A stretch of 64,000 nucleotides of DNA from Serinicoccus hydrothermalis (GTDB lineage Bacteria; Actinomycetota; Actinomycetes; Actinomycetales; Dermatophilaceae): contig NZ_CP014989.1 of the NCBI RefSeq assembly GCF_001685415.1, forward strand, positions 806,001 to 870,000, written 5' to 3'. The notes under the pieces were generated by a model. The model saw nothing but the letters and a program-made list of their open reading frames with translations. It was not told the DNA's origin and searched no databases. This document shows positions 53,973 through 64,000 of the stretch, in pieces; the stretch's first letter is position 1; each line of letters opens with the position of its first letter. The position numbers were made by a program, and so were the translations under genes.

Positions 53973-54000
53973 GGCCTCGCCCGACGCGCCCCTGAGCCGC

Positions 54001-54040
54001 ACCGACGCCCGTCCGGCACCCGTGCCGGGCGGGCGTCGGT
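54001..54040 (+). terminator. Strong hairpin terminator after the DUF7455-type gene
   Basis: Arms 54001-54011 and 54030-54040 pair perfectly over 11 bases and continue inward (54012-54018 with 54023-54029) with one T-G wobble, giving an 18-bp stem. It follows the stop at 53972 by 28 bases. A short run with several T follows. Confidence 0.85.
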
Positions 54041-54050
54041 CTGCGTCGGG

Positions 54051-54056
54051 CACAAT
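54051..54056 (+). promoter_or_regulatory. Candidate -10 (CACAAT) for the DUF456 gene, leaderless
   Basis: CACAAT lies exactly seven bases before ATG at 54064 and just after the preceding terminator. The spacing equals that of the other leaderless candidates, though the hexamer is less typical. Confidence 0.35.
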
Positions 54057-54063
54057 CTGCTCC

Positions 54064-54552
54064 ATGGAGCCGGCCGAGATCCTCATCCTGGTGTTCATGG
54101 CGATCGGCGTCGTGGGGATCGTCCTGCCGATCCTGCCCGGTCTGCTCATCGTGCTCGTGGGGTCCCTCATGTGGGCGCTGACGCAGCAGAGCACGCTGGG
54201 ATGGGTGGTCTTCGCGCTCTCGGCGCTGGTCTACGCGCTCGGCGTCGCCCTGCAGTGGGCCATCCCCGGCCAGCACATGCGCCGCGCCGGGGTCCGCACC
54301 TCGACCCTCGTCATCGGCGTGCTCTGCGCGCTGGTGCTGGGCTTCGTCATCCCCGTCGTGGGCCTCTTCCTGGGCTTCCCCCTCGGGATCTTCCTCGTCT
54401 CCCTCGCCCGCACCCGGGACCGCCGTGAGGCGCTGGGCCACACCCGGCTGGCGTTGCGGGCGGTCGGCCTCAACATCCTCATCGAGCTGGCGACGGCCTT
54501 CGCGCTCATCGCGATGTTCGTCGTGAGCGCGCTGGTGCTCACCCCCTCGTGA
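54064..54552 (+). CDS. DUF456 membrane protein
   Basis: The 162-residue protein has four to five membrane helices. GVVGIVLPILPGLLIVLVGSL in the first helix pair is the DUF456 signature, repeated in part as GFVIPVVGLFLGFPLGIFLV. The family is widespread and uncharacterised; its glycine-rich helices suggest tight packing. It is monocistronic, flanked by terminators. Confidence 0.85.
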   Translation: MEPAEILILVFMAIGVVGIVLPILPGLLIVLVGSLMWALTQQSTLGWVVFALSALVYALGVALQWAIPGQHMRRAGVRTSTLVIGVLCALVLGFVIPVVGLFLGFPLGIFLVSLARTRDRREALGHTRLALRAVGLNILIELATAFALIAMFVVSALVLTPS

Positions 54553-54561
54553 GCACGAGAG

Positions 54562-54606
54562 ACGTCCTCCGGTGCCTGTCTCCCTGCGGACGGCACCGGA
54601 GGACGT
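54562..54606. terminator. Bidirectional terminator between DUF456 and sortase genes
   Basis: Arms 54562-54576 and 54592-54606 are perfect 15-bp complements with a partly paired 15-base loop. It lies between two convergent genes (stops 54552 and 54645), so it can end transcripts from both sides. Confidence 0.85.
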
Positions 54607-54644
54607 GGTTCGTGGGTCCTGCCTGTGATCGGTCGCTGCGCCGG

Positions 54645-55436
54645 TCAGCCCTCGACCATGCGGGCATACGCGACGGTGTTGTCCTCGTGGTGTCCCGTGG
54701 ACTCGTCGAACTCACCGCCACAGGTGATGAGCCGCAGCTCGGGCTCCTCCGTCGGTCCGTAGACGTCGACGGTCGGGAACTCGTCCTTGGGGAACTGGTC
54801 GACACGGTAGACCTCGTAGGTCACCGTCCGGCCGTCCTCGCGGTCCACCTCGGCGGTGTCCCCGGGCTCCAGGGCGCCGAGCTCGAAGAAGATCGACTCG
54901 ATGCCTCCGGCACCCGTCACGTGGCCCTCGATGATGGTCGGTCCGACCTCACCGGGAGTCGGTGAGCCGTCGTACCACGCGGCCTCGTGGTAGCGGTCGC
55001 CGCTGGGCACCTCCAGGGTGCCGTCGTCGGCGAGACCGAGGGCGTGCAACGGGCTGGTGACCGAGATGGAGGGTATGCGCACCTCCACCGGCTCCGAGGG
55101 CTCCAGACCCTCGACGGTCGGCTCGGCGTCGGACCCGTCCTGCTCCTCCGACTCCTCGGGACCCGGCACCGCACCCGCGGCCTCGTCGGAGGCCTCGGCC
55201 TCCGCCGTGGTGGGCGCGGCGTCGCTGTCTGACCCGCTGTCGGGGTCCTGCGTGGCCGCGGCGCCGTCCTGCTCCGGAGCGGTCTGCTCCGCGCTGGCCG
55301 GGGTCGGCGAGGGCGGGTCGGGCCGCTGCGTGCCGAAGCCGACGCCGACGAGGACCACACCGACGAGGACGGCGAGCACGGCCAGGGCCGTGAGGACAAG
55401 GCCCCCACGGCCCCGGTCGGTGTGCTCGGCAGACAT
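54645..55436 (-). CDS. Class F sortase
   Basis: The 263-residue protein has an N-terminal membrane helix (LVLTALAVLAVLVGVVLVGV), an acidic Glu/Asp/Ala-rich linker of about 75 residues, and a C-terminal sortase barrel. Catalytic elements are visible: His in IEGHVTG, Cys in LRLITCGGEFD, and Arg in NTVAYARM after GHHEDN. Class F sortases attach proteins to the actinobacterial cell wall; few substrates are known. The gene starts one base after the CHRD gene stop, so the two are cotranscribed and the CHRD protein is the natural substrate candidate. Confidence 0.9.
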   Translation of the reverse strand: MSAEHTDRGRGGLVLTALAVLAVLVGVVLVGVGFGTQRPDPPSPTPASAEQTAPEQDGAAATQDPDSGSDSDAAPTTAEAEASDEAAGAVPGPEESEEQDGSDAEPTVEGLEPSEPVEVRIPSISVTSPLHALGLADDGTLEVPSGDRYHEAAWYDGSPTPGEVGPTIIEGHVTGAGGIESIFFELGALEPGDTAEVDREDGRTVTYEVYRVDQFPKDEFPTVDVYGPTEEPELRLITCGGEFDESTGHHEDNTVAYARMVEG

Positions 55437-55437
55437 G

Positions 55438-56202
55438 TCAGCTGTCGGTGCGACGACGCTGGTTCAGCGCGAAGGCACCGGCACCGGCAGCGAGGAGCAG
55501 GGCACCGCCGGCGATCATGCCGGAGTTCTCCATCCCGCTGGTGCTGCCACCACCGGTCTCCACGCCACCACCGGGGGCGCTCATCTGGCCCATCTCGAAG
55601 GCGCCGCACAGGGCCGGGTCGGTGGCCTCCGAGGGCAGGCTGTCGTCCAGGTCGGACATCTGCTCGCCGTCGTACTCGCCGGAGCCGTTGTGGTCGACAC
55701 CGTGGACGACCACGACACCCTGGCCGTCGTGCAGGCTCTGGGCGATGTCGTCCGGCACCTCGAAGGTGCGCTCGTAGGTGTAGGTGCCGTCGGACGGGAA
55801 GTTGGCGACGTCCAGCGCGCCGGCCTCGGAGGTGTCCGCGTCGTTGCCGGTCAGCGAGACCCGGACGGCGCCGTAGCTGTCGATGGCGTCGGTGGTGCGG
55901 ATGGCACCCTCGAAGCCGCTGCCCTCCATGTCGGGGTCGGGGCACTCGCCGGCGCCACCGAGGTGGATGTGCTGGGCGTGCGGGGCGCCCTCGAGCAGGC
56001 CCTGCACCTCGACCTTGATCCAGACCTCGTTGCCGGTGACCTTGGCCCAGGCCTCGCCGCTGCCGCCCGAGTCGTTGAGCTCGGTGAACGTGGTCATGAG
56101 CTCCACGGTCTCGTCCTCGTGCGCGGCCAGCGCCGGGGCGGCGCTCACCGCGAGCAGGGCCGGGGCGGCCAGGGTGGCCATGGCTGTCGTGAGCTTCTTC
56201 AT
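55438..56202 (-). CDS. CHRD-domain surface protein
   Basis: The 254-residue exported protein has a signal peptide (MKKLTTAMATLAAPALLAVS, cleaved near ALAA). Its CHRD domain has VQGLLEGAPHAQHIHLGG, then YGAVRVSLTG, and VVVHGVDHNGSGEY. The His-rich motifs are typical of the fold. The C-terminus has a Gly/Ser linker, GMENSG, one hydrophobic helix (IAGGALLLAAGAGAFAL) and NQRRRTDS, the tripartite shape of a sorting signal, but no LPxTG. Two Cys (in GECPD and PALCGA) may form a disulfide. It starts a two-gene operon with sortase F, behind a SigK-like promoter. Confidence 0.88.
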   Translation of the reverse strand: MKKLTTAMATLAAPALLAVSAAPALAAHEDETVELMTTFTELNDSGGSGEAWAKVTGNEVWIKVEVQGLLEGAPHAQHIHLGGAGECPDPDMEGSGFEGAIRTTDAIDSYGAVRVSLTGNDADTSEAGALDVANFPSDGTYTYERTFEVPDDIAQSLHDGQGVVVVHGVDHNGSGEYDGEQMSDLDDSLPSEATDPALCGAFEMGQMSAPGGGVETGGGSTSGMENSGMIAGGALLLAAGAGAFALNQRRRTDS

Positions 56203-56264
56203 CCGGGGGTCACTCCTCCAGTTGGTGCCGCTGCAGCCGTGTGCCACAGCGTGAGTACACCGGG

Positions 56265-56293
56265 GATTCGGCGCGGGCCCAGGAACGGATTGG
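56265..56293 (-). promoter_or_regulatory. SigK-type ECF promoter before the CHRD gene
   Basis: On the minus strand CCAATCC (56293-56287) and CCGAATC (56271-56265) are separated by 15 bases. The published mycobacterial SigK consensus is, from memory, CCATCC and CCGAATC with a similar spacer, so the -10 matches fully and the -35 has one extra A. It lies about 63 bases before the CHRD ATG, and sigK-rskA are immediately upstream. This makes the CHRD-sortase operon the probable SigK target. Confidence 0.7.
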
Positions 56294-56327
56294 AGTTGTG
56301 ACGGAGATCACATCGTGACGCCGAGGG

Positions 56328-56354
56328 CCCCTGCGCCGTCGTCGGCGGCAGGGG
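56328..56354 (-). terminator. Hairpin terminator downstream of rskA
   Basis: CCCCTGC (56328-56334) and GCAGGGG (56348-56354) pair outside an inner GCCG-TCGT-CGGC stem with one bulged G. It lies nine bases after the rskA stop (56363, minus strand) and before the SigK-type promoter, separating the two transcription units. Confidence 0.7.
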
Positions 56355-56362
56355 GCGGCGGC

Positions 56363-57133
56363 TCAGGTGAGGGGGACGACGACAAAGGGGTCGGTCGTCG
56401 GCTGGGTCGAGCCTCCCGTGGGCTCCACGGTGAAACCGACCGCGACCGCGTCGTCGGGCGAGCCCTCGAGCAGGGCCTGGCCCTCCTCGAGCATCTCGGG
56501 CTGCAGCACCCCGGCGGAGCGGGCCGAGCCGTCGGCCCCGACGAACCAGGCCTGGTAGACGCTGCCGGCCTGCGGTCCGGCGAAGTCGGCGGGCAGCTGC
56601 ACCACCGCCCGACCCTCGGTCGCGGACACGACGACGGCCAACGGGCCGTCGGCGGTGTCGGCGGTGTGCTCGGAGGCGTCGTCGGCGCGGATGACCTGCG
56701 TCGCGGCGTCCGGGTTCAACGCCTGAGACACACCCCATACCCCACCGGCGAGCACCACCGCGGCGGCGGCCGCGGCCAGCCACCGGCCGGGCCGGGCCCG
56801 GCGACGCTGCTCGCGGGCCTGACGGCGGGAGGTCAACGAGGTGACCTGGGCGACGTCGGGCCGGTCTTCGCCACGGTCCTCGTGCGTCGTGACGGTCGTG
56901 GTGTCGCGACCGCTCCCCTGTCCCCCCGCCTCCGCGGCGATGAGGTCGAGCACGGTGGTCCGCAGCTGAGCGGGCGGCTCGACCTCGAGGTCCTCGCTGA
57001 GCAGGACGGACACGTCCTGCAGCTCCTGGACCTCGCGGCGGCACTGCGCGCAGGACTCCAGGTGAGCCTCGAACGCGGCGCGCTCCTCGGGGTCGACGGC
57101 ATCGACGGCATAGGCCGCCGCCAAGTCGTGCAT
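56363..57133 (-). CDS. rskA: Anti-sigma-K factor RskA-like
   Basis: The 256-residue membrane protein has an N-terminal zinc anti-sigma motif (HLESCAQC, the H-x3-C-x2-C of ZAS domains) that binds the sigma factor in the cytosol. A basic segment RRQAREQRRRARPGR precedes one membrane helix (LAAAAAAVVLAGGVWGVS). The extracellular RskA C-terminal domain has VYQAWFVGADGSARSAGVL. ATG at 57133 has AAGGAGG five bases upstream; an earlier ATG (57148) overlaps the sigK stop. Regulated proteolysis of the outer domain would release SigK. Confidence 0.9.
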   Translation of the reverse strand: MHDLAAAYAVDAVDPEERAAFEAHLESCAQCRREVQELQDVSVLLSEDLEVEPPAQLRTTVLDLIAAEAGGQGSGRDTTTVTTHEDRGEDRPDVAQVTSLTSRRQAREQRRRARPGRWLAAAAAAVVLAGGVWGVSQALNPDAATQVIRADDASEHTADTADGPLAVVVSATEGRAVVQLPADFAGPQAGSVYQAWFVGADGSARSAGVLQPEMLEEGQALLEGSPDDAVAVGFTVEPTGGSTQPTTDPFVVVPLT

Positions 57134-57144
57134 GTCGCCCTCCT

Positions 57145-57789
57145 TCATCCCTGCTCACCTCCGTCCAGCTGCTTGCGCAACTTCGTCAACCCGTCCCTGA
57201 TGCGAGTCTTGGCCGTCCCCAGGGGGACGTCCATCCGCTGGGCCACCTCACGGTGGGTGAGCCCGGAGAAGTAGGCCAGGGCCACGGTGGTCCGGTGCGG
57301 CTCACCGATCCGGTCCAGTGCCGTGCGCACCCTGGTCGCCTCCATCCGCTCGACTGCCTCCTCAGCGGTCGCGTCGTACGGCGGTGTTGTCTGCTGGGAT
57401 TCGTAGCGGTCCAGCCGATCGGATTGGGCCTGTTCGGAACGGACCCGATCCACGGCCCGACGATGGGTCAGGGTCAGCACCCAGCCCAGCGGCGATCCCC
57501 GCGAGGGGTCGACCTCGCCGGCCTGGCGCCAGATCTGGAGGAAGACGTCCTGGACGACCTCCTCGGCCATCGCCCGGTCCCGGACGACGCGCAGGGCCAG
57601 GCCGAACACGCGTGGTGACAGCAGGTCGTAGAGCTGCGCGAGGGAGGTCTGGTCACCGTCCGCGACGAGACCGAGCAGCTGGATCAGGTCCGGCCGCCCG
57701 GCCTCGGAAACGTCGACGACCCGGGCGTTGCCCGGGTCGTGGTCGTGGGTGTCGGAGGTCAGAGACCCTGCTCCCGTCGCCGGTCCCAC
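57145..57789 (-). CDS. sigK: ECF sigma factor SigK-like
   Basis: This 214-residue sigma-70 relative of the ECF group has region 2 at about residues 52-100 (DLLSPRVFGLALRVV, VVQDVFLQIWRQ, LGWVLTLTHRRAVDRVR). Region 4 is at about 155-205 (FSGLTHREVAQRMDVPLGTA and TRIRDGLTKLR). It lies next to an RskA-type anti-sigma gene and pairs with it. GTG at 57789 has GGAG five bases before it and overlaps the DUF3040 gene by 31 bases. No SigK-type promoter is visible before sigK itself, so autoregulation is not evident. Confidence 0.9.
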   Translation of the reverse strand: MGPATGAGSLTSDTHDHDPGNARVVDVSEAGRPDLIQLLGLVADGDQTSLAQLYDLLSPRVFGLALRVVRDRAMAEEVVQDVFLQIWRQAGEVDPSRGSPLGWVLTLTHRRAVDRVRSEQAQSDRLDRYESQQTTPPYDATAEEAVERMEATRVRTALDRIGEPHRTTVALAYFSGLTHREVAQRMDVPLGTAKTRIRDGLTKLRKQLDGGEQG

Positions 57790-58214
57790 TGGTGCTCCAT
57801 CCGCTCCATGAAGGAGCCGGAACGGGAGGTCTTCTTCTTGACCGTCCCCGACGTGCCGGACCGGCGGACCGAGCCGTCCTTGCCCACGACACCGCGGGGG
57901 CCGGAACCTGCCTTGCCCGAGCCGGTCTTCCCGGAGCCCGTGCGTGCCGGTGACGCCGCCCAGGCGCCCCCCATCACCATCGCGAGGAAGCCCAGGGCAC
58001 CGACCCAGATCATGGAGGACATGACGCCCACCACCACCAGGGCGAGACCGCCGAGGGCGGAGAGCACCCCGAGGACGAGCCGACGCCGGTCCAGCCCGCC
58101 GGCTGCACCGCCCGTTGCCGGGCGCTTGAGCTGGCTGGCGAGGCGAGGATCCTCGGCGTAGAGGGCCTGCTCCATCTGCTCGAGCACACGCTGCTCGTGA
58201 TCTGAGAGCGGCAC
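57759..58214 (-). CDS. DUF3040 membrane protein
   Basis: The 151-residue protein starts MPLSDHEQRVLEQMEQALYAED, the DUF3040 signature. Two membrane helices follow (LVLGVLSALGGLALVVVGVM and WVGALGFLAMVMGGAW). The C-terminal tail is basic and Ser/Gly/Lys-rich. The family is actinobacterial and uncharacterised. GGAGG precedes GTG at 58214. It overlaps sigK by 31 bases, so the two may share a transcript. Confidence 0.88.
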   Translation of the reverse strand: MPLSDHEQRVLEQMEQALYAEDPRLASQLKRPATGGAAGGLDRRRLVLGVLSALGGLALVVVGVMSSMIWVGALGFLAMVMGGAWAASPARTGSGKTGSGKAGSGPRGVVGKDGSVRRSGTSGTVKKKTSRSGSFMERMEHQWDRRREQGL

Positions 58215-58279
58215 GTTCACCTCCGGTGGTGCGAGTCGAGGGTCGGTGACACGGAGACCGACACCATGTCCTGACATCA

Positions 58280-58285
58280 AGGATA
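58280..58285 (-). promoter_or_regulatory. Candidate -10 (TATCCT) for DUF3040-sigK-rskA
   Basis: On the minus strand TATCCT lies 65 bases before the DUF3040 GTG, inside the 157-base gap after dinB. No -35 is clear. I see no LexA-type palindrome and no gene in this gap. Confidence 0.35.
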
Positions 58286-58371
58286 AGACGTGAACGAGCG
58301 GAGCACTACCCGGAGTTCCCCGACCGGGTCGACGAGGGTCTGCGGTGCGTCGACCGGACCCGTCGGAGGGG

Positions 58372-59535
58372 TCAGCGGCACAGCAGGCTGGCCGGGCGCA
58401 CCGCCTGGTGCCCGAACCGGGCGACCGCCCGGTCGGCGGCCCGCTCGGCCTCGCGCCAGCCCCGCTCGGGCTCGTCCAGCCTGCCCTGGACCAGGGTCTG
58501 CCCGACCTCGGTGATGCCCTCCACCCGCACCCCGAGCATGCGGATCCGGGCACGCTGCAGGCCCAGCGCGGCGTACAGCGAACAGGCGGTGCCGTGCACC
58601 TCCCGGGTGACGTCGGTGGGGACGGCGACGGTGCGGGACCGGGTGATGGTGGTGAAGTCGGAGAAGCGCACGGTCAGCACCACGGTGCGGCCCAGCACCC
58701 CGGCGTGACGCATGCGGCTGGCCGTGCGTTCGGCGAGGTGCAGCAGCTGCCGACGGACGAGGTCGGGATCGTCCACGTCATGGCTGAACGTCTCCGAGGA
58801 CCCGACGCTGCGCTCCCGGCGCTGCGGCACGACCGGGTCCTCGTCGATCCCCCAGGCCAGGGTGTGCAGCCGCGCGGCGGACTGCTCGCCGAAGGCGCGG
58901 CGCAACGTCGTCAGGGGCACGTGGGCCAGCTGGGCCACCGTGTGCAGACCCAACCGGTGCAGCTCGGCCTCGGTGGCCTCCCCCACCCCCCACAGGGCAC
59001 CCACCGGCATCGGGTGCAGGAAGGGGACGACGTCCTCCCGGGCGACCATCCTCATGCCGTCCGGCTTGGCCGCCCGGGAGGCCATCTTGGCGACGGCCTT
59101 GGAGGGAGCGGCGCCGACCGAGCAGGTGATCCCCTGCTCGTCGGCCACGGTGTCGCGGATCCAGCGACCGATGGCCTCGGGCCCGGCCCAGCGCCGCCCG
59201 GTCGCGGAGAGGTCGAGGAAGGCCTCCTCCATCGAGACCGGTTCGACCTGGGGGGTGACCTCGGCGAAGATCGCCATCACCGCCTCGGAGACACGGGCAT
59301 AGCTGTCCGGGTCGGGCCGGACCACGACCAGGGGCGGGCACAGCCGGCGCGCGGTGGCCATGGGGATGCCGGACCGCACGCCGTAGGCCCGGGCCTCGTA
59401 GGTCGCCGCGAGCACCACGCTGCGCCAGCCTCCGCCGACCACCACCGGCAGGCCGCGCAGGTCCGGTCTCTCCAGCAGCGAGACCGCCGCGTAGAAGGCG
59501 TCCATGTCGACGTGCATCACCCACCCGCGGCTCAC
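58372..59535 (-). CDS. dinB: Y-family DNA polymerase IV (DinB), atypical metal dyad
   Basis: The 387-residue polymerase has HVDMDAFYAAVS with the first catalytic Asp, and YEARAYGVRSGIPMATA. The second catalytic motif, normally S-x-DEAFLD, reads SMEEAFLD, so the first acid of the Asp-Glu dyad is Glu. TCSVGAAPSKAVAKMAS and the helix-hairpin-helix region LWGVGEATEAEL follow, then the little-finger domain. There is no C-terminal beta-clamp motif that I can recognise. GTG at 59535 overlaps the dnaE2 stop (GTGA), so it is coupled to dnaE2. It probably helps bypass damaged DNA bases. Confidence 0.88.
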   Translation of the reverse strand: MSRGWVMHVDMDAFYAAVSLLERPDLRGLPVVVGGGWRSVVLAATYEARAYGVRSGIPMATARRLCPPLVVVRPDPDSYARVSEAVMAIFAEVTPQVEPVSMEEAFLDLSATGRRWAGPEAIGRWIRDTVADEQGITCSVGAAPSKAVAKMASRAAKPDGMRMVAREDVVPFLHPMPVGALWGVGEATEAELHRLGLHTVAQLAHVPLTTLRRAFGEQSAARLHTLAWGIDEDPVVPQRRERSVGSSETFSHDVDDPDLVRRQLLHLAERTASRMRHAGVLGRTVVLTVRFSDFTTITRSRTVAVPTDVTREVHGTACSLYAALGLQRARIRMLGVRVEGITEVGQTLVQGRLDEPERGWREAERAADRAVARFGHQAVRPASLLCR

Positions 59536-62500
59536 CACCCGGAGCTCCCCGGGCTGGAGTGCCACAGCTTGGTGCCCGGCTGCCGGGTCGCCTCACCCGC
59601 GGGCGCCACGTCGGCATACGGCGACTGGGCGAAGCCGGAGGCGTGCAGCAGCACCCGGCGGCCCGCCGGGGCACCGGCCTGCTCCGAGGCCCGCCGCGAG
59701 GCGTCCTCCGCCTCCTGCGCCACCAGGCGCGCGGTCCGCTCGGCCTGCTCCATCGCCTCGAGCGCCGCGGCGCGACCACCGAGCTCCCAGGCCTGGGCGA
59801 CCTCACCCAGCTCCCAGGCCGCGGTCGCCCTGATCGACACCCCGCGCGGACCGGTGCGGCGCACCACACCACGCACCATGAGCAGCCAGGAGTGGAACAC
59901 GGTCGCGGCGTAGGGACCCTGGACGTCCTCGAAGAAGGTGGCGTCCGCCGGTCCGCTGCCGTCGTCCACGGTGAGGAAGACCACCCGCCTCCCGGACCGC
60001 ACCGGCGGGGTCTGGGTCGCCACCTTGGCACCGGCCACGAGCACCTCGGCACCGCCGCGGTAGGAGAGCAGGTCCCGGGACCGGGTCACCCCGAGGTCGG
60101 CCAGCATCGGGCCGAAACCGGCCACCACGTGCTGGCTGACGTCCATGCCGAGCACCTCCAGCTCGGCCCGCAACTGCTCGGACTCGCTCATCTCCGGCAG
60201 GCCGCTGCCGACGAGCGGTGCGGGGTCGTCACCGAGCTGCAGCGTCAGCTGCGTGGTCGCGGCGGCGGAGGCCTGGTGCCAGGACCGGCGCCCGACCGCC
60301 TGGTCCTCCGCCCGCGCGGCCACCTCGCCGGCCCCGAGGGTGGGGGCGGTCCGGAGGCGTCCGGAGCCGGTCCGGCCGCGGCCGCTGCCGGCGTGACGCG
60401 ACCAGCGCTCCAGGTCGCGGACGTGCAGCATGAGGTCGCGCCGGGTCAGCCCGGCCCGGCCGGCGCCTGCTCCGCCCCGGGCCCCGGGACGTGCGGGGCG
60501 GGGGGTGCGCCGACCGACCCGGTGCAGCTCGTCCAGCCCTCCGGCCAGCACCAGCCGTTCGGCCGTCGGGCGGCTGGGGCGGGCCCGGTGCCACAGGTCG
60601 GACAGGGAGTCGTAGGGCTGGCCGGCGACGATCCTCGCGACCTCGTCCTCGCTGATGCCCTTGACGTCGGACAGGGACAGCCGGATGCCGTACCCACCTG
60701 CCCGGCGCTCGACCAGCCCCATCACCGCGTCGACCCGGTCGGGGGTCCGTCGCACCGTGCCCTGAGCCGTGGGTGACCGGTCCACGGCGGCGAGGAAGCC
60801 GTCGGGCACACCGGACCCGGATCCGGGCCTGCTGCCGGGCGCAGAGGGGTCGCCGTCCGCCCCGCGCGGGTCCACCCGCTCGACCCGGTAGGTCGCGCCC
60901 GAGGCGTTGACGTCGAGCCCGAGCACGTGGACCCCCATGGTCCTGGCCTCGTCCAGGATGAGCCGCTTGGGGTACATCCCCGGGTCGTGGGTGAGGACAC
61001 CGGCGAGGAAGGCCGCCGTGTGATGCGTCTTGAGCCAGGCCGACTGGTAGGTCGGGAGCGCGAAGGCCGCGGCGTGCGCCTTGCAGAAGCCGAAGGAGGC
61101 GAAGGCGGCCAGCACCTCCCAGATCCGGTCCACCTCGTCCGGGCGGTAGCCCCGTGCCGTGGCCGCCGCACGCCACCACATCTCCACCTCCTGCTGCCCC
61201 GCCGGGCTGCCCATCGCCCGGCGCACCTCGTCGGCCTGGGCCAGCGTCACGCCGGTGGTCTCGGCGACGATCTGCAGCACCTGCTCGTGGAAGACCACCA
61301 CCCCGCACGTCTGCTCCAGGTAGGGCACCAGGCTGGGGTGGAGGTACTCCGGCTCCCCCCACCCCTGACGTGCGTGGAGGAAGGGCCGGATCATGTCGGA
61401 CTTGACCGGGCCGGGGCGGAAGAGCGAGATGTCGATGATGATGTCGGCGAAGTTCTCGGGCGCGAACTTGCCGACCAGCTCCCGCTGCCCGGGCGACTCG
61501 ATCTGGAAGCAGCCGAGGGTACGGGTGGACTGGATCAGGGCGAAGGTGTCCGGGTCGTCGAGCGGCACCTGGGCCCGGTCGTCCAGGTCGATCCGCGCAC
61601 CGTCGACCCGCTCGACCTCGTCGAGGGCGTGCGTCATCGCCGACTGCATGCGGATGCCCAGCACGTCGAGCTTGAGCAGGCCCAGCTCCTCGACGTCGTC
61701 CTTGTCGAACTGGCTCATCGGGAACCCCAGCCAGCTGGACTCGACCGGGGTGCGGTCGAGCAGCCCGGTGTCGGACAGGACCACCCCGCACGGGTGCATC
61801 GCGATGTGCCGGGGCAGGCCGTCCAGCGACTCCACCAGCTCCATGAGCAGCTGCATCCTGGGGGCGTCCAGCCCCTGACGGCGCAGCTCGGGGAGGTCAC
61901 GGATCGCGGCGCGGGCGTCCCGGGCGCGGATGTGCGGGAAGGCCTTGGCGATGACGTCGACCTCCCCCGGCGGCATCCCCAGCGCGGCGGCGACGTCCCG
62001 CACCGCGTGCCGCACCCGGTAGGTCTCGGTCATCGAGACGCAGGTCACGCGTTCGGAGCCGAAGCGTTCCAAGATGCGCTCGTAGAGCTCGGTGCGCCGG
62101 GCGGACTCGACGTCGATGTCGATGTCCGGCAGCTGGGCGCGCAGCGGTGAGCAGAAGCGCTCCATGAGCAGGCCGTGCTCCAGCGGGTCCACGCCGCTGA
62201 TGCCCAGCAGGTAGGTGACCAGGCTCCCGGCCCCCGACCCGCGGGCCGCCACCCGCACGCCCTGCTCCCGGATCAGGTCGCACACCTGGGCGACCGTGAG
62301 GAAGTAGGTCGGGTAGCCCAGCCCGGCGATGACGCCCAGCTCGTCCTCGAGCCGGTCGTGGATCCGGCGCAGGGACGAGGACCCCGTCCCGGGGTAGCGG
62401 GTGGCGACGGCCTGGGTGCAGCGCTCGGTGAGGACCTGGTGCACCTGCCCGACGCCCTGCACCCCCAGCACCTCCGGCTCGGGCAGGTGGACCGCCCCGA

Positions 62501-63599
62501 TGCCGAGGTCGGACCGGGCGTCCTGGTGGCAGGCGGCCGCCAGCTCCAGCGTCTCGCGCAGCAGCTCCTCGGCACGGGCCCCGGGGCCGGCCGCGTGCTC
62601 GAGCTGGCGGGCCAGGCCGTGCATGGCGGAGGTCGTCGCCAGGTGACCGGCGCTGCTGACCCGGTCCAGGTGACGCTCGTCGAGCGCGACCCGCCGTCGG
62701 GCCGCGTCGAGGACGTCGACCACCCGGGCCTGCTCGGGTCGGGCGTGCCGCACCGCGGCCGTGAGCACGGCGGGGACCCCCACCTCCCGGGCCAGCGCCC
62801 AGGACGCCGTGGCGTGCGCCAGGCTGCCCGGCGTGCCGTCGGGTCCTCCGTGGCAGACCACCTCGACCCGCACCGCCCCTGCCGGGAGCAGCCGGACCCA
62901 GGCCAGGAGCAGCTCCCGGGCCCGGTCACGGCGGCGGGCGAGCAGCGCCCTGCCCACGTCGGAGTCCGGACCGAGCAGCAGCACGACCGGAGCCGCCCCG
63001 GCCGTGCCGGCCGCCGCCCGGGCGACCAGCTCGGGGGTGACCCGGGGGACGGAACGCTCCCCCGCCAGGTGGGTCTGGGTGACCAGGCGGCACAGCCTGG
63101 CCCATCCCGCCCCGGCCTCGGCGCCACCCCGCTGACCGCGGGCCAGCAGCACCACCCGCGGCTGCTGGTCGTCGACCAGCGTCCCTCCCTTGACCGGGCT
63201 GCGCGGGCCACGGCGTTCCGGGCGGGCGTCCGGGCCCTCGCCCCACCCACGCCCCGGGGCCACCTGACGCCGGTCCTTCCGCTCCTCGGTCCTGAGCCCG
63301 GTGACGAACGGGCTCCGGGCGACGTCGAGGTGGCCGGCTCGTCCCACCGGCCCGGACGGCGGACCCGCCAGGGCGAGGTCCACCCCCAGCACCGGCGCGA
63401 CCCCGGCCTCGCCGCAGGCACGGACGAAGCGCACCGCGCCGTAGAGGCCGTCACGGTCGGTCAGCGCCAGCGCCGACTGCCCCAGCCCGGCGGCTCGGGC
63501 CACCAGCTCTGCCGGGTGGGACGCGCCGTACCGCATCGAGGCGCTGGAGGCGACGTGCAGATGGACGAAGTCGTCGCCGGCCCGGGTCACCGGGCTCAC
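59532..63599 (-). CDS. dnaE2: Error-prone DNA polymerase III alpha subunit DnaE2
   Basis: The 1355-residue C-family polymerase begins with a PHP domain (VHLHVASSASMRYGASH, LALTDRDGLYGAVRF), longer than usual because of an Arg/Gly-rich insertion near residues 100-145. The polymerase core carries the catalytic PDIDIDVESARR, RGSGAGSLVTYLLGISGVDP and FQIESPGQRELVGKFAPENF. The C-terminus has helix-hairpin-helix and an OB fold (VVFLTVDDGSGPADATFFED). DnaE2 performs mutagenic translesion synthesis after SOS induction, usually with ImuB. GTG at 63599 overlaps the upstream HEPN gene (GTGA) and the stop overlaps dinB. The SOS box, if any, must lie beyond the window. Confidence 0.92.
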   Translation of the reverse strand: MSPVTRAGDDFVHLHVASSASMRYGASHPAELVARAAGLGQSALALTDRDGLYGAVRFVRACGEAGVAPVLGVDLALAGPPSGPVGRAGHLDVARSPFVTGLRTEERKDRRQVAPGRGWGEGPDARPERRGPRSPVKGGTLVDDQQPRVVLLARGQRGGAEAGAGWARLCRLVTQTHLAGERSVPRVTPELVARAAAGTAGAAPVVLLLGPDSDVGRALLARRRDRARELLLAWVRLLPAGAVRVEVVCHGGPDGTPGSLAHATASWALAREVGVPAVLTAAVRHARPEQARVVDVLDAARRRVALDERHLDRVSSAGHLATTSAMHGLARQLEHAAGPGARAEELLRETLELAAACHQDARSDLGIGAVHLPEPEVLGVQGVGQVHQVLTERCTQAVATRYPGTGSSSLRRIHDRLEDELGVIAGLGYPTYFLTVAQVCDLIREQGVRVAARGSGAGSLVTYLLGISGVDPLEHGLLMERFCSPLRAQLPDIDIDVESARRTELYERILERFGSERVTCVSMTETYRVRHAVRDVAAALGMPPGEVDVIAKAFPHIRARDARAAIRDLPELRRQGLDAPRMQLLMELVESLDGLPRHIAMHPCGVVLSDTGLLDRTPVESSWLGFPMSQFDKDDVEELGLLKLDVLGIRMQSAMTHALDEVERVDGARIDLDDRAQVPLDDPDTFALIQSTRTLGCFQIESPGQRELVGKFAPENFADIIIDISLFRPGPVKSDMIRPFLHARQGWGEPEYLHPSLVPYLEQTCGVVVFHEQVLQIVAETTGVTLAQADEVRRAMGSPAGQQEVEMWWRAAATARGYRPDEVDRIWEVLAAFASFGFCKAHAAAFALPTYQSAWLKTHHTAAFLAGVLTHDPGMYPKRLILDEARTMGVHVLGLDVNASGATYRVERVDPRGADGDPSAPGSRPGSGSGVPDGFLAAVDRSPTAQGTVRRTPDRVDAVMGLVERRAGGYGIRLSLSDVKGISEDEVARIVAGQPYDSLSDLWHRARPSRPTAERLVLAGGLDELHRVGRRTPRPARPGARGGAGAGRAGLTRRDLMLHVRDLERWSRHAGSGRGRTGSGRLRTAPTLGAGEVAARAEDQAVGRRSWHQASAAATTQLTLQLGDDPAPLVGSGLPEMSESEQLRAELEVLGMDVSQHVVAGFGPMLADLGVTRSRDLLSYRGGAEVLVAGAKVATQTPPVRSGRRVVFLTVDDGSGPADATFFEDVQGPYAATVFHSWLLMVRGVVRRTGPRGVSIRATAAWELGEVAQAWELGGRAAALEAMEQAERTARLVAQEAEDASRRASEQAGAPAGRRVLLHASGFAQSPYADVAPAGEATRQPGTKLWHSSPGSSGW

Positions 63600-64000
63600 C
63601 CGTGACCCAGCGGGACCAGCTCGGCGTGCACCGGTACCTCGCACGGCAGGTGCAGCGAGGCACGCACCAGCTCCAGGAAGCGCTCCCCCGCCCGGACCAG
63701 GTCGTCGGCGTCCCGCGCGGTGACGGTGACGCTGCCGGCGCCGCGCTCCAGGGCGACCCGCCGCCGACCGGAGGCGGCGAAGAACGCGGCCCACTCGGTC
63801 AGCTCCGGTGCGACCGAGGAAAGCACCTCCCAGACGCTGCGCGGCCGGCTGCGGGGGACCGGCGTCGTGCGGGCGGCCAGCAGCGCCGCCCCGGCCCGCA
63901 GCGCAGCCAGGTGGGCACAGGTGTAGCGCTCGGCCGCGGTGGCGCTGTGGCACGCCTCCAGCAGCACCCCCCGTGATCGTTCCAGCAGGTCCAGCACGGC
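63596..64000 (-). CDS. SAV_6107-type HEPN-domain protein (5' end probably cut)
   Basis: At least 133 residues read to the right edge: LLERSRGVLLEACHSATAAERYTCAH, then LRAGAALLAARTTPVP, then SVWEVLSSVAPELTEWAAFFA. This all-helical pattern is that of SAV_6107-family HEPN proteins, which usually precede dnaE2 in actinomycetes. The only start inside the window is GTG at 63997, three bases from the edge, so the true start may lie outside. It is coupled to dnaE2 by a GTGA overlap. Function unknown; a link to translesion synthesis is suggested by position only. Confidence 0.75.
   Translation of the reverse strand, partial: AVLDLLERSRGVLLEACHSATAAERYTCAHLAALRAGAALLAARTTPVPRSRPRSVWEVLSSVAPELTEWAAFFAASGRRRVALERGAGSVTVTARDADDLVRAGERFLELVRASLHLPCEVPVHAELVPLGHG

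Follow-up and report, generated by a model that had tools for sequence, protein, structure and literature searches.

Four genes in line on the minus strand of a 64,000-nucleotide stretch of Serinicoccus hydrothermalis (NZ_CP014989.1; we call the whole stretch the window, and coordinates are positions within it) make up a SigK-RskA module: an extracytoplasmic function (ECF) sigma factor and its anti-sigma factor, followed by a CHRD protein and a class F sortase. By all sequence signs this is a conserved surface-display cassette under SigK control, a variant of the SigK regulon and not a new kind of system. What does it display, and in answer to what? RskA, an anti-sigma factor of the membrane, would keep SigK bound until release; once freed, the sigma factor would drive the promoter at 56293-56265 and with it the closely coupled CHRD-sortase pair, as the conservation of the promoter suggests. 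The CHRD protein would then be exported, and the sortase would cleave it at a C-terminal GVETG and join it to the cell wall, where its barrel, predicted to resemble superoxide dismutase (SOD), may bind or handle copper or run a copper-dependent redox reaction. Control by SigK together with wall display we consider probable; the copper step, the weakest of the chain, we put forward tentatively. To the whole reading, in which the main output of the SigK-RskA regulon would be a wall-anchored copper-binding SOD-fold enzyme or copper store and SigK-RskA would respond, at the envelope, to copper or to redox stress linked to it, we give a probability of about 0.27. New here are the SOD-fold prediction for CHRD and the copper genes that neighbor it, which amount to a structural and genomic lead toward copper.

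A model's reading of the letters alone (the original prediction) had placed sigK and rskA beside a CHRD-sortase unit with a near-consensus SigK promoter before it, and both statements hold: the four genes adjoin one another, their proteins all pass family cut-offs in Pfam and NCBIfam profile searches, and the promoter is where it was said to be, its core unique in the host genome (one contig of 3,597,394 bases). In order along the strand, the features are these:

57145..57789, minus strand: sigK, ECF sigma factor (NCBIfam SigK NF007228, 239.4 bits, cut-off 226)
56363..57148, minus strand: rskA, anti-sigma factor with zf-HC2/RskA_N and RskA_C, 261 residues, full length (RskA_C 71 bits, RskA_N 30 bits)
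56265..56293, minus strand: SigK-type promoter word CCAATCC-N15-CCGAATC (pattern search and conservation)
55438..56202, minus strand: CHRD protein gene (PF07452, 26.9 bits, cut-off 24.1)
54645..55436, minus strand: class F sortase gene (NF033748, 185.2 bits, cut-off 166)

The sigK frame shares bases with the end of a DUF3040 gene, and its start codon is uncertain. A gap of 160 bases separates rskA from the CHRD gene, and a single base separates the CHRD stop codon from the sortase ATG. The CHRD ATG at 56202 is preceded by GGAGGAG and lies about 62 nucleotides from the -10 word, which makes a transcription start at about 56258 plausible. The GTG at 56247, where the open frame begins, was ruled out as the CHRD start, the ATG having a good ribosome site and fitting the homologues. 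Among named organisms, the CHRD gene has its closest relatives in Serinicoccus.

For comparison, we sampled 80 CHRD-centred loci, 40 SigK-centred loci of the order and 80 named CHRD loci, sets that overlap. Their 166 CHRD upstream regions came down to 96 once proteins at least 85% identical were dropped (the window's own site is excluded), and the promoter word was scored by its match to the window's 14 bases and called at 12 or more with a spacer of 15 or 16.

The display part of the argument is the simplest. The CHRD protein begins with a hydrophobic, signal-peptide-like stretch, continues with the predicted SOD-fold domain (about residues 32-207), and ends with GVETG, a membrane stretch and an RRR tail. 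That tail matches the NCBI GVDTG sorting domain NF058571 (31.3 bits, cut-off 29), and at E 0.001 the window protein is the model's one match in the host genome, where four matches are class F sortase-like and two of these exceed the cut-off. Both window proteins thus exceed the curated cut-offs of the known pairing of class F sortases with GVDTG_CTERM substrates (NF033748, NF058571). For 82 of the 96 CHRD genes, the retrieved flank includes a gene for a class F sortase, and among those 82 proteins the tail contains GGx(x)xTG in 73 and LPxTG in 0; the sortase's catalytic His172 and Cys239 are invariant in an alignment of the window protein with 146 relatives. It is because of the family models and this strict pairing that we infer export of the CHRD protein and its joining to the wall by the window sortase, acting on the GVETG tail. 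The GVDTG signal is known from its NCBIfam model and is not named in the literature that our searches found. An Actinoplanes paper (mBio 2026, PMC13251363) set aside two srtF-adjacent proteins that have no pentapeptide, yet suggested them as possible SrtF substrates, and it calls the physiological roles of class F sortases unknown. Two other arrangements may be recorded here. The host genome has a second CHRD-class F sortase cassette (C1:1935776-1937297, L147), whose CHRD protein is 47% identical, and three Dietzia loci (L216, L219, L222) have a CHRD protein with the SigK word and no adjoining sortase, a serine-glycine repeat tail replacing GVxTG.

What, then, is the displayed protein? That bacterial CHRD proteins have no known function, as the original prediction said, agrees with our searches of the open-licence literature; the predicted structure now supplies a lead. 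An AlphaFold2 model built from 63 sequences has a mean predicted local distance difference test score of 93.8, and the Foldseek matches listed for it are SODs (best E 1.1e-4). In VIA-align, which is a re-examination of Foldseek's own matches, all 50 matches listed are Cu/Zn SODs, Cu SODs or the SOD domain of their copper chaperone (Z 10.0-11.1), the best of them aligning 113 residues at 2.7 Å with Z 11.1. Two CHRD alignments, of 52 and 63 members, have the same six residues invariant throughout: H75, H78, H80, C87, H167 and C199. By order and spacing, we take these to match H43, H46, H48, C57, H120 and C146 of human SOD1. No invariant or near-invariant histidine lies between H80 and H167 to stand for the bridging and zinc histidines of SOD, and His158 of the window protein is non-conserved. 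At the place expected for a copper site the predicted barrel retains its histidines; in contrast to Cu/Zn SOD, it lacks the zinc and bridging ones.

The CHRD domain is SOD-like in predicted fold and falls outside the SOD family itself. Profile comparison with SodC gave nothing significant: hhalign against actinobacterial SodC aligned the H-x-H and, in some runs, both cysteines, with the late histidine one place off, at scores that were non-significant throughout. Sod_Cu (PF00080) finds no match in the window protein at E 0.1 and matches 4 of the 52 members of the smaller alignment weakly (best E 0.0066), PF07452 matching 41 of the same 52 at E up to 0.1. At E 1e-12, the host genome has no Sod_Cu match, and 4 of 99 genomes of the order have one.

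One might imagine instead that the same SigK-driven cassette displays a metal-free SOD scaffold with a structural or adhesive role, as in chordin, which would be compatible with everything said here about regulation and display. The lack of the zinc and bridging histidines in the window's CHRD family speaks for such a scaffold, and so does human chordin, whose CHRD domains have a SOD-like fold and are said to bind glycosaminoglycans and to have no metal ligands (PMC13382577). The shared feature is the Greek-key barrel, predicted for the bacterial family. Against the scaffold stand H75, H78, H80 and H167, invariant in 52/52 and 63/63 members: the bacterial family keeps the H-x-H, the later histidine and the two cysteines and so appears, from its alignments, to depart from chordin in the one trait that would count here, the metal ligands. 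The neighborhood of the cassette in other genera also tells against it, and we regard the metal-free scaffold as possible but doubtful.

That neighborhood contains genes for the copper proteins YcnI (DUF1775), CopC and CopD, which adjoin the module in Brachybacterium; in Geodermatophilaceae it is CopC. In Brachybacterium loci L104 (=L214), L204 and L211, a HAD/P-type-ATPase-like gene, a DUF5134 gene, ycnI, copCD, sigK and rskA are convergent with the sortase-CHRD pair, and in all three of these distinct loci the SigK word stands before ycnI at 13/14 (the copper genes were identified by Pfam on L211 and for ycnI of L104, the others by similarity). On L211 the genes lie as follows:

L211:8288-12656, Brachybacterium: ycnI-copCD directly ahead of sigK-rskA

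Another Brachybacterium locus (L105, =L213) has copCD before sigK and no ycnI within the flank. In Geodermatophilaceae (L239-L268), 22 of 25 loci, counted without dereplication, have copC in divergent orientation to the CHRD-sortase cassette, and so has Promicromonospora L221 with respect to CHRD; six of the CopC assignments were confirmed by Pfam, and the rest come from a profile of those six plus one Brachybacterium CopC. The Geodermatophilaceae CHRD loci with copC have the word below 12/14, and in those searched the SigK relatives are sub-cut-off only. Copper genes thus accompany CHRD in two different regulatory settings.

The case for SigK begins with the promoter word. CCAATCC-N14-18-CCGAATC has a single match in the window and 0 in 100 shuffles, and the core CAATCC-N13-18-CCGAAT has 1 match in the whole 3.6-Mb genome, the reversed control having 0. 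The window's copy agrees in 14/14 bases with the SigK-type word. Among the 96 CHRD upstream regions, 53 carry the word; shuffling gives 5 in 1920 regions, and random stretches drawn from these loci, which can include the real site, give 32 in 1920. Of the regions that reach 12/14, 45 do so at a spacer of 15, 8 at 16, and 0 at 12-14, 17 or 18, and the word stands at a median of 64 bases from the estimated CHRD start codon. Across genera, the word before CHRD is conserved in sequence, spacer and position. In the 21 dereplicated relatives with linked SigK, where the original prediction would have it kept, it reaches at least 12 of 14 bases in 14 and at least 11 in 17, the other 4 having 9 or 10.

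Does the word belong to SigK? Among 49 named CHRD genomes, it precedes CHRD in 17 of 26 with SigK above 200 bits and in 1 of 23 without (Fisher 6.6e-6); at 11 or more bases, the counts are 22 of 26 and 2 of 23 (Fisher 7.1e-8), values that are not true probabilities, since related species are not independent and the SigK-poor group is mostly Geodermatophilaceae. Across 186 genomes of the family, SigK is found in 94 of 99 with CHRD and 35 of 87 without; in the 31 genomes of the host's own genus, the two are present together in 24 and absent together in the other 7. In other SigK loci, the word is also found before sigK itself, before fasciclin genes and before a gene of DsbD type. The retrieved flank includes SigK in 22 of the 96 CHRD loci, upstream on the same strand in 6, downstream on the opposite strand in 9, downstream on the same strand in 4 and upstream on the opposite strand in 3, and an association repeated in such varied layouts points to selection rather than to a single inherited order. 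The upstream neighbors of CHRD are diverse, and none dominates: the 68 scanned (of 77 candidates, 9 short or repeated ones being excluded, with genes called by a rough composition rule) include DUF5701 three times, MFS three, CopD three, fasciclin two and DUF456 two.

Another ECF sigma factor might own the promoter, the adjacency of sigK being incidental. The word does occur in 39 of 75 CHRD loci without SigK nearby, the host genome has at least one further ECF factor (near a DUF4397-sortase F pair), and one Dietzia genome (L216) has the word where no SigK was found. Set against this are the tracking of true SigK by the word across the 49 genomes, its place before sigK and fasciclin genes elsewhere, and the presence of SigK in nearly all CHRD-bearing genomes of the family, and we judge another owner improbable. 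That CHRD and sortase are mainly transcribed by read-through from sigK-rskA, the word being a minor site, would suit co-directional genes, the 160-base gap and a search of 54000-58600 that found no terminator-like site (0.5 expected in shuffles), but in many relatives the order is convergent or CHRD comes first while the word before CHRD is kept, and this is the least probable of the explanations that we weighed.

The preferred reading, SigK-driven display of a copper-handling CHRD protein, has its own difficulties, and the following observations weigh against it. The links to copper and to SigK are found mostly in separate clades and meet in Brachybacterium and Promicromonospora L221; beside the window module, a profile scan of the window's proteins saw no copper gene. 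The Foldseek superposition is loose (template modeling score about 0.5, root-mean-square deviation 6-9 Å), and sequence similarity to SOD is non-significant (PDB profile E 0.4; hhalign probability below 4%). Five CHRD genomes of the family have no SigK match, of which 3 are incomplete and 2 (G554, G680) are 100% complete; the Dietzia genome just named belongs here too, as does the second host cassette (C1:1935776-1937297), which has neither the SigK word nor an adjoining SigK. Some regions reach 12/14 at other spacers: 4 at 10, 3 at 11, 1 at 19 and 2 at 20. The original prediction had proposed a survey of actinomycete genomes for the same four-gene linkage and promoter: sigK-CHRD linkage, in four arrangements, and the word recur, yet 43 of the 96 loci fall below 12/14, 7 of the 21 SigK-linked ones among them.

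What might release SigK? The original prediction spoke of an envelope-stress-inducible module. Control of CHRD and sortase by SigK-RskA finds support in a word that is conserved and tracks SigK; the envelope-stress part found no such support. The window SigK has no cysteine at all and hence lacks the pair of the Mycobacterium tuberculosis protein, so that a cysteine pair of that type plays no part here. Of the CHRD-linked SigK sequences, 44 of 47 have no such pair, and of the others 24 of 38 (redundancy not removed, window included, and the columns matched by a spacing of 50 rather than against the M. tuberculosis sequence). According to PMC7509140, the two cysteines of M. tuberculosis SigK (Cys133/Cys183) are necessary for full activation by RskA, and 56% of ECF19 members have such a pair, which is thus no defining trait of the family. 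Regulated proteolysis of RskA is a likely route of release, because RskA is full length; in M. tuberculosis, Rip1 acts on RskA, and the same source reports that SigK makes no contribution to iron homeostasis and that Rip1, not SigK, is tied to copper (PMC10449499). In mycobacteria, SigK controls eleven genes, its binding sites are conserved across Actinobacteria, and sigK is autoregulated via Rv0449cp (PMC7509140); according to the same paper, the sigK-rskA pair is missing from M. smegmatis.

If the copper-answering reading is true, it would tie the signal of the SigK family, known from antigens of tuberculosis bacteria, to metals, and it makes one sharp prediction: H78, H80 and H167 of the CHRD protein bind copper. 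The module is compact and occurs in named, cultured species (e.g., Serinicoccus, Ornithinimicrobium and Brachybacterium), and it would put three questions into one experimental system: the substrates of class F sortases, the role of bacterial CHRD proteins and the signal of SigK-RskA. Our searches of the open-licence literature returned no paper joining CHRD with class F sortase, SigK-RskA with sortase, or sortase, SigK and fasciclin together; CHRD with extracytoplasmic function came up in one paper only, unrelated by its title.

The likeness to the mycobacterial SigK-RskA regulon (mpt70/mpt83 and the Rv0449c operon) lies in the sigma and anti-sigma families, in the type of promoter word and in a second, weaker site of the host genome. 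A relaxed pattern finds 8 sites there, against 2 for its reversed control, and besides the CHRD site the only one near a gene start (L310:6066; spacer 16, -10 word ACGAA) stands 48 bases ahead of an amine oxidase-DUF1365-CMAS operon, the others being inside frames, more than 200 bases from a gene or before none. This layout is that of the SigK-linked Rv0449c-Rv0447c operon. The differences are as plain: the two patterns used found no copy of the word before the window sigK (one relaxed match lies inside its frame), the cysteine pair is absent, and the output is a sortase-linked protein of predicted SOD fold rather than a fasciclin. The contrast with fasciclin outputs, drawn already in the original prediction, recurs in the 40 SigK-centred loci of the order, 17 of which have a fasciclin gene and 2 of which, both Brachybacterium, have CHRD-sortase. 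Brachybacterium L202, L203 and L205, where fasciclin, SigK-RskA and CHRD-sortase stand all together, are a bridge between the two outputs.

Elsewhere in the window, a DNA polymerase IV-type gene (IMS; 58372-59565) overlaps the end of a long frame at 59532-63953 that, judged by eye, resembles a DnaE-type polymerase. Elsewhere in the genome, at C1:1921966-1926133 (L310:7967-12133), a second ECF sigma factor is accompanied by an anti-sigma factor of RskA_C type and is located some 1.4 kb away from a DUF4397 surface protein and, after it, another sortase, class F-like but scoring under the class F cut-off; the design is the same, the displayed protein another one.

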